This document shows positions 3,878 through 13,066 of a DNA stretch of 35,114 nt, in pieces. The notes under the pieces are model-generated. The model did no database searches and had not been told where the DNA came from. It worked only from the letters and a program-made list of their open reading frames with translations. Source of the stretch: a virus. How positions within the stretch are numbered: the first letter of the stretch is position 1; each line of letters opens with the position of its first letter. The translations under genes were made by a program, and so were the position numbers. The stretch lies in IMG/VR virus record IMGVR_UViG_3300044765_000178, positions 1 to 35,114 of that record. One strand, written 5' to 3'.

Positions 3878-5019
3878 CAGCCCAGTACAGCTACGTGATC
3901 GCCGATCTGGCGACGAACGCCAAGCTGGGCGAGTTGCCCCTGACCGGTGTCACCTACACCAAGAAGTTGTGCGACGCGGGCACGTTCAGCGCAACGTTGG
4001 ACCTGTCCCTGGAGTTCGACGGCGACCCGTATGACCTGACCAGCCCGGTCATGCGGGTGCTGTACGTGATGCGCGGGAACACCCCCGCGTTCGGCGGGAT
4101 CATCTGGACCCGCAAGTACGACAGCGCCAAGCGCACGGTGCAGATCGCCGGCGCGGACTGGTGGTCCTACTACGACCACCGCAAGATCTTGCCGGTGCTG
4201 AGCGGAGCTCAGAACAGCGACCCGACCTACGTCGCCGGGTTGTCCGTGGGCTGGACCGCAACCGACCAGAACCAGATCGCGCGGAACCTGATCAGCCTGG
4301 CGCACTCGCACACGGGCGGGAACATCCTCGTCGACGTCGTGTCCGACACCACGGTCAGCAACATCTTCCACGACCGCACCTGGTACGGGTACAAGCTGAC
4401 CGATGTCGGCGCGGCACTGCGGGATCTCGCGAACGTGCTGGGCGGCCAAGACATGGCATTCGACGTCGCGGGCGTGGATTCGCAGGGCCGGGTGCGTCGG
4501 GTGCTGCGGCAGGGAACGCCCTACCTCGGCCAGCAGGGCAGCGCACACGTGTGGGAGGTCGGTGGCAACGTCTACAGCTACCTGTGGCCCTCGGACGGCT
4601 CCAAGATGGACACCAGGGCGTTCGCGACGGCCGACGGGACCGCGGAGGGAACGCCGATCGCCGCGGCCGAGGACGCCACCCTGTACCCGCTCAGTTGGCC
4701 GCTGCTGGAGTCGGACAGCAACTACAGCAACGTGTCCGACACCGCGACCCTGTACGCGCACGCGCAGTCCGATCAGCAGATCAGCCGGCTGCCGGTCGTG
4801 CTGCCGGTGCTCAACGTCGACAGCGACAAGTCACCGACGCTGGATGAGATCAGCGTGGGCGACGACGCGCGGTTCGTCGTGCAGGCCGGAAGCGACCTGT
4901 TCCACACCCGGGGCCTGGACACCTCGATGCGGATCATCCAGATCAACGTCAGCCCCTTGGACGCTGGCGGCGAGAACACCTCGGTCGTGATGGCGCCTCT
5001 ACTCGACGACGTGTACTGA
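3874..5019 (+). CDS. tail tip hub protein (ReqiPepy6 Gp37-like / Tal-like)
   Basis: 381 aa from a GTG that overlaps the preceding stop (GTGA). The N-terminus (YSYVIADLATN, LGELPLTG) followed by FSATLDLS, PAFGGIIWTRKYD and TVQIAGADWWSYYDHR is the typical pattern of actinophage Gp37-like tail proteins, related to the gp27/Tal hub that closes the tail tube. The C-terminal third has LDEISVGDDARFVV and LFHTRGLDTSMRII, matching the OB/beta part of such hubs. No peptidase motif was seen, so a structural role is favoured. Upstream starts in the same frame lack a ribosome site. Confidence 0.68.
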   Translation: MTAQYSYVIADLATNAKLGELPLTGVTYTKKLCDAGTFSATLDLSLEFDGDPYDLTSPVMRVLYVMRGNTPAFGGIIWTRKYDSAKRTVQIAGADWWSYYDHRKILPVLSGAQNSDPTYVAGLSVGWTATDQNQIARNLISLAHSHTGGNILVDVVSDTTVSNIFHDRTWYGYKLTDVGAALRDLANVLGGQDMAFDVAGVDSQGRVRRVLRQGTPYLGQQGSAHVWEVGGNVYSYLWPSDGSKMDTRAFATADGTAEGTPIAAAEDATLYPLSWPLLESDSNYSNVSDTATLYAHAQSDQQISRLPVVLPVLNVDSDKSPTLDEISVGDDARFVVQAGSDLFHTRGLDTSMRIIQINVSPLDAGGENTSVVMAPLLDDVY

Positions 5020-7098: not shown

Positions 7099-7335
7099 AT
7101 GAGCAACGCCCCGATCGAGGCCAAGGTCACCGCGGCGACCGGCACCGCGCTGGTCGTCGGGTTCATCGTCAGCTGGCTCGGCGCCAGCGTCTTCCACGGC
7201 ACCGTGCCGGACGCGGTGGCCGGCATCGTCGAGGCCGCGGTCACCGCGGCCGCCACGTTCGGCGCCGGGTGGCTGGCCAAGCACACCGCGCGGCCCACCA
7301 GCTCGACGGCGAGCGTGCCGCCGCCCGCGGCCTGA
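7099..7335 (+). CDS. holin, two transmembrane helices
   Basis: 78 aa. Two hydrophobic segments (about residues 12-32, TGTALVVGFIVSWLGASVF, and 38-60, VAGIVEAAVTAAATFGAGWL) are followed by a short polar tail. Size, topology and position right after the lysin gene and before the terminator are those of a small actinophage holin that opens the membrane for the lysin. A ribosome site (AAAGG) lies before the ATG. Sequence families of holins are too diverse to name one. Confidence 0.75.
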   Translation: MSNAPIEAKVTAATGTALVVGFIVSWLGASVFHGTVPDAVAGIVEAAVTAAATFGAGWLAKHTARPTSSTASVPPPAA

Positions 7336-7844: not shown

Positions 7845-8177
7845 TCAGCGGCCCGGTTCGGGGCGGGGCGGGCAGTGCCCGCAGTCGCAGTTCAGGTCGT
7901 GGACCAGAGCACCCACGGCGTCCACCTCCCCTCCGGTCAGGCCACGCATGATCGTGTCGACGAGCATCGCCGCTAACTCCCGGGACAGCACGAGTTGCAG
8001 GGGGATGTCCTCGCCGCCGAGCCAGGGCATCCGCGGCTGGTCGAGCACGCGCTGGTCGGTGAGGGCGACGGTGATGTGGTGCTCGCTGGCGTCGACGATC
8101 GCCATGCGCGTGCTGGGTGCGGCGATGCCCAGGACGAGGGGCTGGCCGGTGAGGCGTTCGCGGTGCACGTACATCAC
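7845..8177 (-). CDS. hypothetical protein with C-terminal Cys cluster
   Basis: 109-110 aa. The start is the GTG at 8177 or the ATG at 8174; both follow GGCAGGTG, and the region overlaps the stop of the upstream gene, suggesting coupling. The body is a mixed alpha/beta sequence with alternating hydrophobic strands (TRMAIVDASEHHITVALT). It then has a helix (LQLVLSRELAAMLVDTIM) and a terminal CDCGHC cluster. No family was recognised. It lies in the leftward accessory operon that starts near the palindrome at 8704. Confidence 0.6.
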   Translation of the reverse strand: MMYVHRERLTGQPLVLGIAAPSTRMAIVDASEHHITVALTDQRVLDQPRMPWLGGEDIPLQLVLSRELAAMLVDTIMRGLTGGEVDAVGALVHDLNCDCGHCPPRPEPGR

Positions 8178-8590
8178 GCACCTGCCGGGTGGTGCACGGC
8201 GCCGGCGAGGCTCGGGGGTTCACTCGCCGGCGCCGCGAGCTGGTGGCCACCCTGCCCAGGGCTCGTGGGCAGGGTGGCCGTGTCCGCCTCGACCTGGGGG
8301 TGACACCGGAGGCCGGCGGCGTCGAGGTGGACGGCTGGAACCCCGACCGGCGTCCGGCGGTTGCCGGGGGCTCCGCCGGCCGGGGCGTCCCCGGCACGAC
8401 GAGGCGCCGGGGGCCTGCGAGGAGAGATGGTGTGCCCCCAGGCTGTCGCGACCAGGCGGGACGTGCCCGTCGTACGAAGGACGCGCTCTTGCACCCATTC
8501 GGTCCAGTAGAGCCGGCGACAGGTTAGGCCGATCAGTGGGAGTACAAACGGAGATCCCAGGATGATCAGCCCAATGGCCGAGTGGTCCAT
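8174..8590 (-). CDS. small membrane protein with long polar C-terminus
   Basis: 138 aa, ATG at 8590 with GGGAGG seven bases upstream. One membrane helix near the N-terminus (IGLIILGSPFVLPLIGLTC), then a basic Pro/Arg/Ala-rich tail of low complexity. The tail is poorly supported as folded protein, and its base usage is less clearly coding than the first 50 codons. It is the first leftward gene of the accessory cassette and diverges from the DUF5753 regulator across the perfect palindrome. A role in envelope modification or superinfection exclusion is only a guess. Confidence 0.5.
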   Translation of the reverse strand: MDHSAIGLIILGSPFVLPLIGLTCRRLYWTEWVQERVLRTTGTSRLVATAWGHTISPRRPPAPRRAGDAPAGGAPGNRRTPVGVPAVHLDAAGLRCHPQVEADTATLPTSPGQGGHQLAAPASEPPSLAGAVHHPAGA

Positions 8591-8703
8591 ACCATCCTCC
8601 CGGGACGTGAGGTCATGGCCCGCCCCACCAACCTGCGAGGGCCCGGTGGGGCGGGGTCGCCCGGATCGGAATGCTGCGCACCTCACCGAGACGACGTCCA
8701 TAC

Positions 8704-8731
8704 GGTACCCAGGAAACGTTTCCTGGGTACC
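8704..8731. promoter_or_regulatory. perfect 28-bp palindrome, likely operator
   Basis: The half-site is GGTACCCAGGAAAC, followed directly by its exact reverse complement with no spacer. It lies in the 220-base divergent region between the leftward membrane protein gene (start 8590) and the rightward DUF5753 regulator (start 8811). The centre GAAACGTTTC is like LacI-family operators, although no LacI gene was seen in the genome. A regulator of phage or host origin binding here would control both directions. Confidence 0.7.
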
Positions 8732-8810
8732 TGTCCGATCGGGTGAAACTTCGAGATCTTGCCCGGAACCGTGCACACTGATCCCGGCACGAAGACCACA
8801 GGGAGGATCG

Positions 8811-9728
8811 ATGCCGGTCAGTCCGACACTGCGGCAGCGCAAGCTGGCGCGGTCGCTCAAGCAGGCCCGGATCGCCGCTGGCCTGTCGGTGGCCGAGTGT
8901 GCGAAGCGGGCCCGGCTCCAGCCCGGCACCATCTCGAAGATCGAGAACGAGCGGCAATCGATCCTCGCCAGGACCGCCCAGCTGATCCTGCAAGCGTGCG
9001 GCGTCGGTGCGCCGCTGCTCGACACCCTGCTCCGGATTGCCGACGAGTCCGAGACGGTGAGCTGGTGGCTCGCCTACTCCGACAGCGTGCCGGACTGGTT
9101 CCGCGACTACGTCGAGCTGGAGTCGGACACCGACGAGATCTGGACCTACTCCAGCGAGCTCGTCGACGGCCTACTCCAGACCCCGGCCTACGCGACGGCC
9201 ATCACCAAGCTGAACCCCGACCTGACCACCGCCCAGCTCGAGCGCGCAGTCAGCCTGCGCGAGGCCCGGCAGGCGCAGCTGGACCGGAACACGCCGCCGC
9301 GGCTACGGATCGTGCTGAACGAGGCCGTGCTCCGGCGCCCGGTCGGCGGCCCCGAGGTGATGCGTGAGCAGATCCGGCACCTGGCCGCGATGAGCCGGCG
9401 CCCGAACATCGACCTGCGGGTCTTGCCCTTCTCCGCCGGCGCCCACCCGGGCATGAAGGGTTCCTTCACCTTGCTCCGATTCCCTGGCGATTTCGCCGAC
9501 ATGGACTGCGTCTACGTCGAATCGGAGACCGGCGCGGTGTGGCAGGAACGCCCTGGTGACATCGGCCGGTACACGACGATCTTCGAGCAGATGGTCTCGC
9601 GGTTCGCCCTGCCCCGGAAAAAGACGACTGCCCTGCTGGATAGCCTGGGAGGTGACCCAACCTGCGAGGGCGAAGGGAGCGTGGATGACCGCAACCGATC
9701 AGGCCATCCGCTGGAGAAAGAGCAGTAG
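8811..9728 (+). CDS. XRE-family regulator with DUF5753 domain
   Basis: 305 aa; the ATG at 8811 has GGGAGG upstream. Residues 8-65 are an XRE helix-turn-helix (LRQRKLARSLKQAR, LSVAECAKRA, GTISKIENE). Residues from about 96 to 285 are the DUF5753 domain (DWFRDYVELES, LVDGLLQTPAYA, VLRRPVGG, LPFSAGAHPGM). Such proteins are very numerous in actinomycete chromosomes and rare in phages. They are paired with DUF397 partners, as here. The last 44 bases overlap the DUF397 gene in another frame. It is likely a DNA-binding regulator acting with its partner; the palindrome upstream is a plausible target (inference). Confidence 0.93.
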   Translation: MPVSPTLRQRKLARSLKQARIAAGLSVAECAKRARLQPGTISKIENERQSILARTAQLILQACGVGAPLLDTLLRIADESETVSWWLAYSDSVPDWFRDYVELESDTDEIWTYSSELVDGLLQTPAYATAITKLNPDLTTAQLERAVSLREARQAQLDRNTPPRLRIVLNEAVLRRPVGGPEVMREQIRHLAAMSRRPNIDLRVLPFSAGAHPGMKGSFTLLRFPGDFADMDCVYVESETGAVWQERPGDIGRYTTIFEQMVSRFALPRKKTTALLDSLGGDPTCEGEGSVDDRNRSGHPLEKEQ

Positions 9729-9876
9729 AAGCGGATCTTCAGGGCAGTGCGTCGAGCTCGCGTACGGCTACGGCGTGCGCGACTCGAAGGACCCGAAGGG
9801 CGTCGTCGTGAGGCTCGGTCGAGACGAGTTCGACCGATTCATTGCGGCAGTAAAGGAAGGGCACTTCGGGCGGTAG
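9685..9876 (+). CDS. DUF397 protein, partner of the DUF5753 regulator
   Basis: 63 aa, ATG at 9685 behind GAAGGGAG. It has the family signature in order: IRWRKSSRSG, then QCVELA, VRDSKDPKG, and a terminal DEFDRFIAAVKEG. DUF397 proteins sit next to XRE-DUF5753 genes and are reported in Streptomyces to act with or against them (WhiJ-like and Scr1/Scr2-type pairs). It overlaps its partner by 44 bases and ends at a terminator, so the two form a closed two-gene unit. Confidence 0.93.
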   Translation: MTATDQAIRWRKSSRSGSSGQCVELAYGYGVRDSKDPKGVVVRLGRDEFDRFIAAVKEGHFGR

Positions 9877-9882
9877 AACGAG

Positions 9883-9915
9883 CAGGACCCCCGGCGACGA
9901 GTGCCGGGGGTCCTG
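9883..9915. terminator. bidirectional terminator-like hairpin
   Basis: A perfect 13-bp stem (CAGGACCCCCGGC with its complement), a 7-base loop and only a short T-rich flank. It lies between the convergent DUF397 gene and the leftward gene ending at 9947. Confidence 0.85.
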
Positions 9916-9946: not shown

Positions 9947-10123
9947 TCAGCTGTACTTGGTCACGGTGCGCTTGCGAGGCCCGAATTTGTGCCAGAGCGT
10001 CAGCGGCAGCCAGACGAACAGGCCCCACATGCCAACCGTGCAGATGGTCAGCACGAGGTGCAATCCGTGCGAGGTCTTCTTGCGGGTCTTGCTGACGGCG
10101 CGGTGCGGGAAGTCGGTCGTCAT
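9947..10123 (-). CDS. tiny membrane protein
   Basis: 58 aa, ATG at 10123 with an ideal AGGAGG six bases upstream. The N-terminus is basic (VSKTRKKTSHG), followed by one helix (LHLVLTICTVGMWGLFVWLPLTLW) and a basic tail. This arrangement is that of a single-pass inner membrane protein. Function unknown. It is the last of three tandem leftward membrane-protein genes. Possible roles in lysogen physiology or superinfection exclusion are inferred from position beside the integrase only. Confidence 0.65.
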   Translation of the reverse strand: MTTDFPHRAVSKTRKKTSHGLHLVLTICTVGMWGLFVWLPLTLWHKFGPRKRTVTKYS

Positions 10124-10132
10124 GGTCCCCTC

Positions 10133-10324
10133 CTACTGGTCGATGTCGGACGGATCGCCGGTGGATGCGCCGGCGTTACTGCGCGCAGCCCAGACCGCCC
10201 CTGCGAGCGCGACGACGGCCACGCCGACCCAGAACCACCAGTGGCCGGCGCTGTAGGCGATGGGCGAGAGGACCCGGTCGGCGAAGGCAGCCAGGAGCGT
10301 CAGGATGTCCACGAGGGAGTTCAT
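10133..10324 (-). CDS. tiny membrane protein
   Basis: 63 aa, ATG at 10324, 4 bases after the upstream gene stop. A hydrophobic N-terminal stretch (LVDILTLLAAFADRVL) and a clear membrane helix (WWFWVGVAVVALAGAVWA) are followed by an acidic tail. Its stop lies just before the ribosome site of the next gene, so the three small genes are one transcript. No family recognised. Confidence 0.6.
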   Translation of the reverse strand: MNSLVDILTLLAAFADRVLSPIAYSAGHWWFWVGVAVVALAGAVWAARSNAGASTGDPSDIDQ

Positions 10325-10328
10325 CGGC

Positions 10329-10559
10329 TCAACGGCCGATCAGCTGAACAGGCACCTGGGTCGGCGCGGCCGGGTCGTCCGGGGTGATGGCGACGCTCGA
10401 CGTGGGCACGGGGGTGTCCGGCGGCGACGGCCACGCGGTGCCGGCGGCGATGACGAAGCACAGGCCGATGATCAGCAAGCCGATGATGACGCTGGCGCGC
10501 GGTACGTTCGTGACGCGGTCCGTGGCGGCCGTAGCGGCGGCGGGGCGGTGCGCGGGCAT
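10329..10559 (-). CDS. small membrane protein, first of three
   Basis: 76 aa, ATG at 10559 with AGGGGACC upstream. The N-terminal 20 residues are Ala/Arg-rich and polar, then one helix (VIIGLLIIGLCFVIAAGTAW) and a Pro/Thr-rich tail likely exposed outside. An inverted repeat at 10577-10593 lies 18 bases upstream of the start. Function unknown. Confidence 0.6.
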   Translation of the reverse strand: MPAHRPAAATAATDRVTNVPRASVIIGLLIIGLCFVIAAGTAWPSPPDTPVPTSSVAITPDDPAAPTQVPVQLIGR

Positions 10560-10798: not shown

Positions 10799-10828
10799 TT
10801 GCCGAGGCGGCCAGGTCGCACGTACGGT
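10799..10828 (+). promoter_or_regulatory. putative leaderless promoter of the integrase
   Basis: TTGCCG at 10799-10804, an 18-base spacer, and TACGGT at 10823-10828, six bases before the integrase ATG. There is no ribosome site, so a leaderless message starting at the ATG is predicted, as is common in actinomycetes. Confidence 0.55.
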
Positions 10829-10834
10829 GCCCGC

Positions 10835-11752
10835 ATGGCCCATCTCCGCACCGCGTACGACCTGGCAGCCGGCGAACTGGCTGACCTGCTCGACGACTGG
10901 GTGCTCCAGCTGCGCGCGGACAACAAGTCGAAGCAGACCGTCGCCTCGTACCGGCAGGGCGTGAGGCGGTTCCTCACCTGGGCCGAGCAGCAGAAGCGCG
11001 TGCCGACGCTCGACCGCAACACGGTCAACGAGTTCATGGTGTCCATGAAGGACGCTGGGCTGCAGGCGACCACCATGACCGCGCGGCAGCTCGCCCTGCG
11101 CCAGTTCAGCGCCTGGCTGGCGAAAGAGCGGGAGATCGAGCAGGACCTTCTGACCGGCCTGACGGTGCCGAAGATCGACGAGCAGCCGCTGAAGCCGCTG
11201 AACGCGGAGGAGCTGAAGGCACTGTTCGCGGCCTGCCAGGGCGACTCCTTCGTCGACCGGCGCGACGAGGCGCTCGTGCGGTTCATGGCGGAGACGTTCG
11301 CGCGGGCCAGCGACACGCTGAGCATGACGATGAAGGACACCGACCTGAAGGCCGGCGAGGCCGTCCTGATCGGAAAGGCGCACCTGCCGCGGGTTGTCGC
11401 CTGGGGCCCGCAGACCGGTGTGTGCATGACGCGCTACGCCCGCGCCCGCAGGACACATCGCCTGGCGTCGGCGGATGCGTTCTGGCTGGGCGGAAACGGC
11501 CGTGGGTTCGGCTACCGCGGCCTGTACTACGCGCTGTCCCAGCGGGCCGAGCGCGCCGGCATCGATGACTTTCATCCGCATCGGCTGCGGGCGACGGGGG
11601 CGACACGGTGGCTGGACGCGGGCGGCAGCGAGTCGGGCCTGCGGGCCGCGGGCGGCTGGGCCAGTATGCGCATGGTGATTCGGTATACGAAGTACACGAG
11701 TCAGCGTCGGGCGGCGGACGAGAGTCGGCGGCTGAACCTCGGCGACCTGTAA
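10835..11752 (+). CDS. int: tyrosine integrase
   Basis: 305 aa. The N-terminal ~115 residues form the SAM-like core-binding domain (LQLRADNKSKQTVASYRQGV, TARQLALRQFSAWL). The catalytic domain carries Arg157 (FARASD), a probable Lys181, the box HRLR at 249-252 (HPHRLRATGATRWL), Trp275 where many members have His, and nucleophile Tyr284 (VIRYTKYT). The spacing from 275 to 284 is canonical. The ATG at 10835 is preferred over TTG at 10799 because a -10 box falls between them. It recombines attP with the host attB. An excisionase was not recognised. Confidence 0.93.
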   Translation: MAHLRTAYDLAAGELADLLDDWVLQLRADNKSKQTVASYRQGVRRFLTWAEQQKRVPTLDRNTVNEFMVSMKDAGLQATTMTARQLALRQFSAWLAKEREIEQDLLTGLTVPKIDEQPLKPLNAEELKALFAACQGDSFVDRRDEALVRFMAETFARASDTLSMTMKDTDLKAGEAVLIGKAHLPRVVAWGPQTGVCMTRYARARRTHRLASADAFWLGGNGRGFGYRGLYYALSQRAERAGIDDFHPHRLRATGATRWLDAGGSESGLRAAGGWASMRMVIRYTKYTSQRRAADESRRLNLGDL

Positions 11753-12814: not shown

Positions 12815-13066
12815 ATGCCCCAACCACTCCTTCGCCTCCCGTTCAGCAGGGAGAAGCTGCGCGACTTGCGCGAGCGCAGGGGACTGACCAAGGCCGGCCT
12901 CTCTCGACGGTGCGAGGAGATCGGGCACCCGGTCACCGCCGCTCACCTGAGCCGTGTTGAGAACGGCCCGAACGTCCCGACTCCGCCGTTGCTCAAGGCA
13001 CTCGCCGACGCTCTCGCCGTGACGGTTGACGACCTGCTCGACCAGACCAAGGCCGGCGCGGCATGA
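12815..13066 (+). CDS. XRE-family Cro-like regulator
   Basis: 83 aa, nearly all one XRE helix-turn-helix domain (REKLRDLRERRGLTKAGLSR, VTAAHLSRVENG, LLKALADALAVTVDDLL). It is the first gene of the rightward early operon and diverges from the repressor. It should act as the Cro-type switch that favours lytic growth, or as an excision control factor. The stop overlaps the next ATG (ATGA). Confidence 0.85.
   Translation: MPQPLLRLPFSREKLRDLRERRGLTKAGLSRRCEEIGHPVTAAHLSRVENGPNVPTPPLLKALADALAVTVDDLLDQTKAGAA

Follow-up and report, generated by a model that had tools for sequence, protein, structure and literature searches.

What controls an XRE-DUF5753/DUF397 pair that is carried by a phage, and how do the palindrome and the divergent membrane-protein gene beside it enter into that control? 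XRE-DUF397 pairs rank with the most abundant regulators in actinomycetes that make antibiotics, and a genome has tens of paralogues. The window, by which we mean the whole stretch of 35,114 bases analysed here, is a virus record with genes of the tail, lysis, integrase, repressor-like, terminase, portal and capsid classes.

The locus and its phage setting

The pair and the repeat that follows it are laid out as follows:

8811–9728, plus strand: gene of the XRE-HTH and DUF5753 regulator, 305 aa (Pfam DUF5753, 6.2e-58; HTH_3, 1e-8; PHROG 9908, 1.5e-63)
9685–9876, plus strand: DUF397 gene, 63 aa (Pfam DUF397, PF04149, 7.8e-18; PHROG 10815)
9883–9915, plus strand: GC-rich 13-bp perfect inverted repeat 3' of DUF397, with a 7-nt loop and no T-run

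Pfam thus places an XRE HTH and a DUF5753 domain (over the cut-off) in one gene and DUF397 in the adjacent downstream gene, which overlaps the xre 3' end. The pair is flanked by a holin-like gene (7099–7335) and a tyrosine integrase (10799–11752), and a small repressor-like HTH gene lies at 12815–13066. A preliminary description of this DNA had reported three genes, a 28-bp perfect palindrome and a 3' hairpin, all of which we find where it had placed them. Its view that the pair is closed by its own terminator holds as far as the perfect inverted repeat at 9883–9915 is concerned, but without a T-run this repeat is only a possible terminator, at best a GC-rich ‘I-shaped’ one. The pair does lie outside the integrase and switch region, as had also been noted, although the distance is merely 1–3 kb. 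Three more small ORFs with hydrophobic stretches occupy the interval between DUF397 and the integrase (9947–10559, minus strand).

A hairpin loop complementary to the DUF397 leader

Our reading of the locus turns on a hairpin and a distant repeat that were absent from the preliminary description:

8619–8655, minus strand: hairpin in the predicted leftward leader RNA, with an 11-bp perfect stem and a 15-nt loop (dG -29.4 kcal/mol)
8630–8644, minus strand: loop of this hairpin, antisense to the DUF397 leader by sequence complementarity
9657–9671, plus strand: target copy CCAACCTGCGAGGGC, an exact 15-nt match to 8628–8642

The hairpin sits between the palindrome and the leftward membrane-protein gene. 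Its loop-region sequence CCAACCTGCGAGGGC has exactly one other occurrence within the window, at 9657–9671, where it ends 13 nt before the DUF397 ATG, directly before the Shine-Dalgarno sequence GAAGGGAG. The predicted accessibility of the target is only average (0.42 unpaired). Rfam returned no match over the gathering score at the hairpins and a chance-level match elsewhere in the region (E=0.51). Interpretations of the hairpin as a recombination site or a terminator were dropped because of the loop-target identity, the covariation of the stem and the absence of a T-run.

Loop and target diverge together across relatives

Viral contigs, named genomes and Pseudonocardiaceae genomes supplied the loci, together with a class-wide control, and loop-target matches were scored by a DUF397-anchored scan, since a simple longest-common-substring test misses the window, where the target lies inside the xre coding end. 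The automated scan accepted 26 of 118 non-redundant DUF5753 loci, with two wrongly placed matches set aside; five further loci are clear by eye (L015, L014/L128, L045, L098 and L116) and two more came from a later viral search (L158, L159). In total, about 33 loci display the same arrangement. About 15 loop sequences can be told apart among them, and every one matches the DUF397 leader of its own locus; examples are AACCTGCGAGGGC, ACGGGCGAACGAG, GCCCAGGGCAG, GGGCAAGCGA, AGAACCCGGGCG, CTTGTGAGGGCCAC, GCAACTGTGACG and TTGTGACTGCAACC. Among loci with a hairpin, a score of at least 11 was reached against the own leader in 23 of 56, against its reverse complement in 0 of 56 and against random windows of the own xre in 1 of 336, while the 99th percentile of scores against the leaders of other loci is 10.7. 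The target immediately precedes the DUF397 Shine-Dalgarno, both where it falls within the xre coding sequence and where it does not, and in all 24 loci scoring at least 10 it ends 33–49 nt before the conserved DUF397 W codon.

The viral contig L001 carries the same G-to-T change in both the loop and the target copy, and the stems of the window and L001 differ at three pairs, all three of them compensatory. Chromosomal loci of Actinophytocola sp. (L002), Amycolatopsis antarctica (L003) and Lentzea fradiae (L004) contain the element with other sequences, the loop-target identity reaching 18 nt in L003. Predicted loop:target duplexes average -32.6 kcal/mol for cognate and -22.7 kcal/mol for non-cognate combinations. 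The direction of the putative antisense RNA can also be judged from the rare mismatches: in a leftward RNA, C/T and A/G differences between loop and target would still pair as G.U, and the opposite ones would not. All five independent interior differences (one in L139/L141, one in L104, two in L131/L132/L045 and one in L116) are G.U-compatible only for a leftward antisense, a small sign test (5/5, p ~0.03). The pattern, seen in this phage and in many chromosomal relatives from soil actinomycetes, suggests an antisense RNA that controls the partner gene and whose sequence diverges locus by locus with the match being kept.

The element has a limited distribution. It was found in 0 of 29 loci of the class-wide control, which are mostly more distant, and several close relatives possess DUF397 without a matching loop (L046, L050, L051, L057, L094–L097), so the element is not essential to the pair. 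In L044 (= L126) and L056 the scan found no clear DUF397, and the hairpin element is absent there too. Apparent matches in L052 and L025 were rejected for a wrong position or a weak match.

Related loops share CTGTGAGAG-type cores, and paralogues within one genome may therefore cross-talk. Genome G114 encodes several paralogous pairs (L045, L153, L154, L151) with different but partly overlapping loops, of which CCTGTGAGAGA is common to L153 and L154, making cross-talk possible. L052 and L055/L146 have a strong hairpin at the usual place with a loop, CTGCTGGAGATCGGGGA, that is unmatched to the DUF397 leader; this loop shares TGGAGATC with the ribosome-binding region of xre itself and is perhaps a variant aimed at xre. 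The xre-DUF397 junction of L057/L152, a locus without a matching antisense loop, contains a 14-bp perfect inverted repeat (CTGGTCAGTAGGGT...ACCCTACTGACCAG) that folds the DUF397 leader itself.

Probable operator and predicted promoters

Three elements between the divergent genes bear on how a leftward RNA could be controlled:

8704–8731, no strand assigned: perfect palindrome of 28 bp, GGTACCCAGGAAACGTTTCCTGGGTACC, probable XRE operator, with positional counterpart palindromes in relatives
8702–8707, minus strand: TACCGT, -10-like box of a predicted promoter for the leftward RNA; it overlaps the edge of the probable operator, and its position is conserved in relatives
8774–8779, plus strand: -10-like box CACACT of the presumed xre promoter, proposed from aligned upstream regions (CAGACT in relatives)

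Such palindromes are expected by chance about 1e-4 to 1e-3 times in 35 kb, as estimated from base composition. Nearly all relatives have a palindrome in this position. It behaves like an operator in this respect, in line with the preliminary description, which had put it forward as a site to be tested for binding of the DUF5753 protein, and we consider it the probable operator of XRE. The palindromes are wholly different between loci (GGAAACGTTTCC, CACGTAATTACGTG, ATGTGTACACAT, CTGCACGTGCAG), and a search of viral contigs for the exact palindrome of the window gave no match. On the leftward strand, 18 of 23 loci have TANNNT at that edge of the best palindrome which faces the hairpin. At the edge facing xre it occurs in 1 of 23, and the frequency in shuffles is 12%; by eye, the palindrome centre lies 9–11 bp before this box in most loci. 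With the TANNNT box at the operator edge, the palindrome is placed as a repressor site of a leftward promoter would be.

A candidate feedback circuit

How might these parts work together? We think it probable that this XRE-DUF5753/DUF397 pair has an antisense RNA of its own to control DUF397, the whole being arranged as a feedback circuit. The leftward promoter (-10 box 8707–8702) would stand under the palindromic operator, and the leftward RNA would start with a leader (~8695–8591) bearing the stable hairpin, whose loop could pair with the xre-duf397 mRNA just upstream of the DUF397 Shine-Dalgarno. Free XRE on the palindrome would keep the leftward promoter off, allowing DUF397 to be made; DUF397 would relieve XRE, as in the published WhiJ/SCO4542 model, and the leftward RNA would appear; this RNA would pair with the mRNA and shut off DUF397 translation, whereupon XRE would recover and the feedback loop would be closed. 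The downstream small membrane protein would be expressed only while XRE is relieved. For the protein part of the circuit, whiJ genetics in S. coelicolor, as summarised in PMC4255298 and PMC6262351, suggest that the DUF397 protein relieves its XRE repressor; the antagonism of DUF397 to its own XRE is known only from whiJ/SCO4542 genetics (PMC4255298).

Considering the sampled loci as a whole, we incline to the view that the XRE-DUF397 pairs of Pseudonocardiaceae and of their phages are controlled by cognate antisense RNAs which diversify fast and form a class not described before. Every locus would have a loop-target ‘key’ of its own, the antisense promoter would stand under the pair's own operator, and the RNA would double as the leader of a small membrane-protein gene. 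Operator, leftward promoter and complementary hairpin appear to be conserved with the pair. A built-in antisense switch, if true, would explain how the dose of the partner is set and would constitute a directly testable circuit; the relatives would then be a natural set of a dozen or more distinct loop-target pairs, and the phage-borne regulator would be coupled to a small membrane protein by a defined mechanism.

Relation to known systems

The supposed novelty of phage-borne pairs could not be upheld, as public records already contain annotated pairs from more distant phages. The phages of PHROGs 9908 and 10815 (Streptomyces phages Samy, Darolandstone, Picard, Success and Ididsumtinwong; Saccharomonospora phage PIS 136) have adjacent XRE-DUF5753 and DUF397 genes, in many cases close to integrase or lysis genes and accompanied by a small gene in divergent orientation. 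Their XRE proteins are 26–35% identical, and the scan found no matching hairpin in them, the five Streptomyces phages included. The WhiJ/SCO4542 and Scr1/Scr2-type pairs of Streptomyces likewise consist of the same two proteins in the same order, often with a third divergent or neighbouring gene, and DUF397 has been proposed to relieve XRE there (PMC4255298, PMC6262351). An antisense hairpin is not described for these pairs in the consulted parts of the open-licence literature on them, nor is such an RNA in those of the open-licence DUF397 papers (PMC10364602, PMC6262351, PMC8269248, PMC2701414, PMC4255298, PMC7159879). The protein pair is known; what appears to be new in the XRE-DUF397 family is an antisense control with co-diversifying loop-target pairs.

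The closest functional analogue is IstR-1/TisB together with the other divergent antisense systems (ShoB/OhsC, Zor/Orz, DinQ/AgrB), in which a divergent RNA with short complementarity to the target leader blocks translation (PMC4147584). The window resembles them in a predicted divergent RNA complementary to the target leader over 15 nt, a likeness of sequence only. Their targets encode small hydrophobic toxic peptides, whereas the target here stands second in a regulator operon and encodes a soluble 63-aa DUF397 protein without a hydrophobic stretch. In addition, the antisense loop is here carried by a hairpin in the leader of another gene, the antisense promoter would be under the operator of the operon's regulator, and loop and target co-diversify.

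The divergent gene and alternative readings

Two genes follow the hairpin on the leftward strand:

8174–8590, minus strand: divergent gene for a small membrane protein of 138 aa, which has a hydrophobic stretch at its N terminus (Kyte-Doolittle maximum 2.14); the RBS is GGGAGG
7845–8177, minus strand: second leftward gene, 110 aa, with C-terminal CDCGxCPxRP and an L001 homologue at the same place (E=4e-17)

The membrane protein has no Pfam or PHROG match, a homologue search with the protein alone was also empty, and a search of the phage collection for distant DNA matches to the region returned nothing. L001, an IMG/VR viral contig, nevertheless has the same layout: its XRE is 73% identical, DUF397 is there, a palindrome occupies the corresponding position, and both the divergent membrane-protein gene and the second gene are present. 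Its membrane protein shares the core VQxxVLRxTGxSRxV, a likeness visible only in a MAFFT alignment and not by BLASTP. A profile search added four more closely related viral contigs (L156–L159), each encoding a divergent small membrane protein of 58–104 aa. The three-gene linkage that the preliminary description had put forward is thus conserved, since L001 and L156–L159 share the divergent membrane gene. Such a gene is present in 6 of 6 closely related viral contigs and at many Pseudonocardiaceae chromosomal loci, and a small membrane protein is found in 10 of 25 positive loci with an ORF against 0 of 18 in the class control. It is not universal: other chromosomal loci have zinc-ribbon-like or other small genes instead, or no ORF. 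In L156 and L157 the proteins are mutually similar, of 58–59 aa with a single hydrophobic segment (MSD...VADAVRD[SA]DWWVI.RG), encoded on the minus strand ~220 nt upstream of xre; their size resembles that of type I toxins, and a matching hairpin loop was looked for at these two loci and not found.

The prevalence of small membrane proteins next to the element raises the question of whether the pairing acts in the opposite direction, the xre-duf397 mRNA binding the leader hairpin and controlling or sponging the leftward membrane-protein mRNA in the manner of an RNA antitoxin. In the window, L001 and L013 the hairpin does lie ~28–70 nt ahead of the leftward start codon, and type I toxins are small hydrophobic proteins (PMC2701414). 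Yet the scan detected no leftward ORF in L131, L132, L139, L140, L141, L104, L098 and L045, of which several show a second hairpin downstream; moreover, the partner gene is unrelated between loci, whereas the match is always at the DUF397 Shine-Dalgarno. We therefore regard the reversed direction as unlikely. The preliminary description had instead raised the possibility of a module captured from a host, serving lysogenic conversion or defence or resembling a toxin-antitoxin system, with the membrane protein as its effector; the palindrome would then be its operator. The position in a temperate phage between a holin-like gene and the integrase and the conserved divergent gene would suit such a module, and Makarova (2009) predicted a DUF397-Xre toxin-antitoxin system of type II, the DUF397 toxin being neutralised by XRE (PMC2701414). 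That prediction is contradicted for S. coelicolor pairs by PMC6262351 and PMC10364602, where DUF397 proteins are non-toxic and their overexpression harmless; at the present locus nothing points to harm or defence, and many chromosomal loci have something else in place of the membrane gene. A captured module of this kind seems to us quite improbable.

It might also be supposed that both copies act as DNA sites: XRE or a different protein could bind them as direct repeats, or they could serve for recombination on either side of xre. On DNA the copies are indeed direct repeats, and they diverge together as the operators of a diverging regulator would. Sites of this kind do not account for one copy always being the loop of a stem with compensatory covariation, nor for the other always being tied to the DUF397 Shine-Dalgarno in or out of the xre coding sequence; all interior differences are G.U-compatible, and a separate palindrome, the probable operator, is present at the predicted promoter. 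We consider DNA sites very unlikely, and antisense control of DUF397 by the leftward leader is the reading that we prefer.

Further structure is apparent in the leftward unit. Two tandem GC-rich perfect hairpins (8197–8235 and 8245–8279) lie where the membrane ORF ends at its 3' side, with the second gene following immediately; they seem to be present in both phages, the L001 counterparts lying at ~4290–4390.
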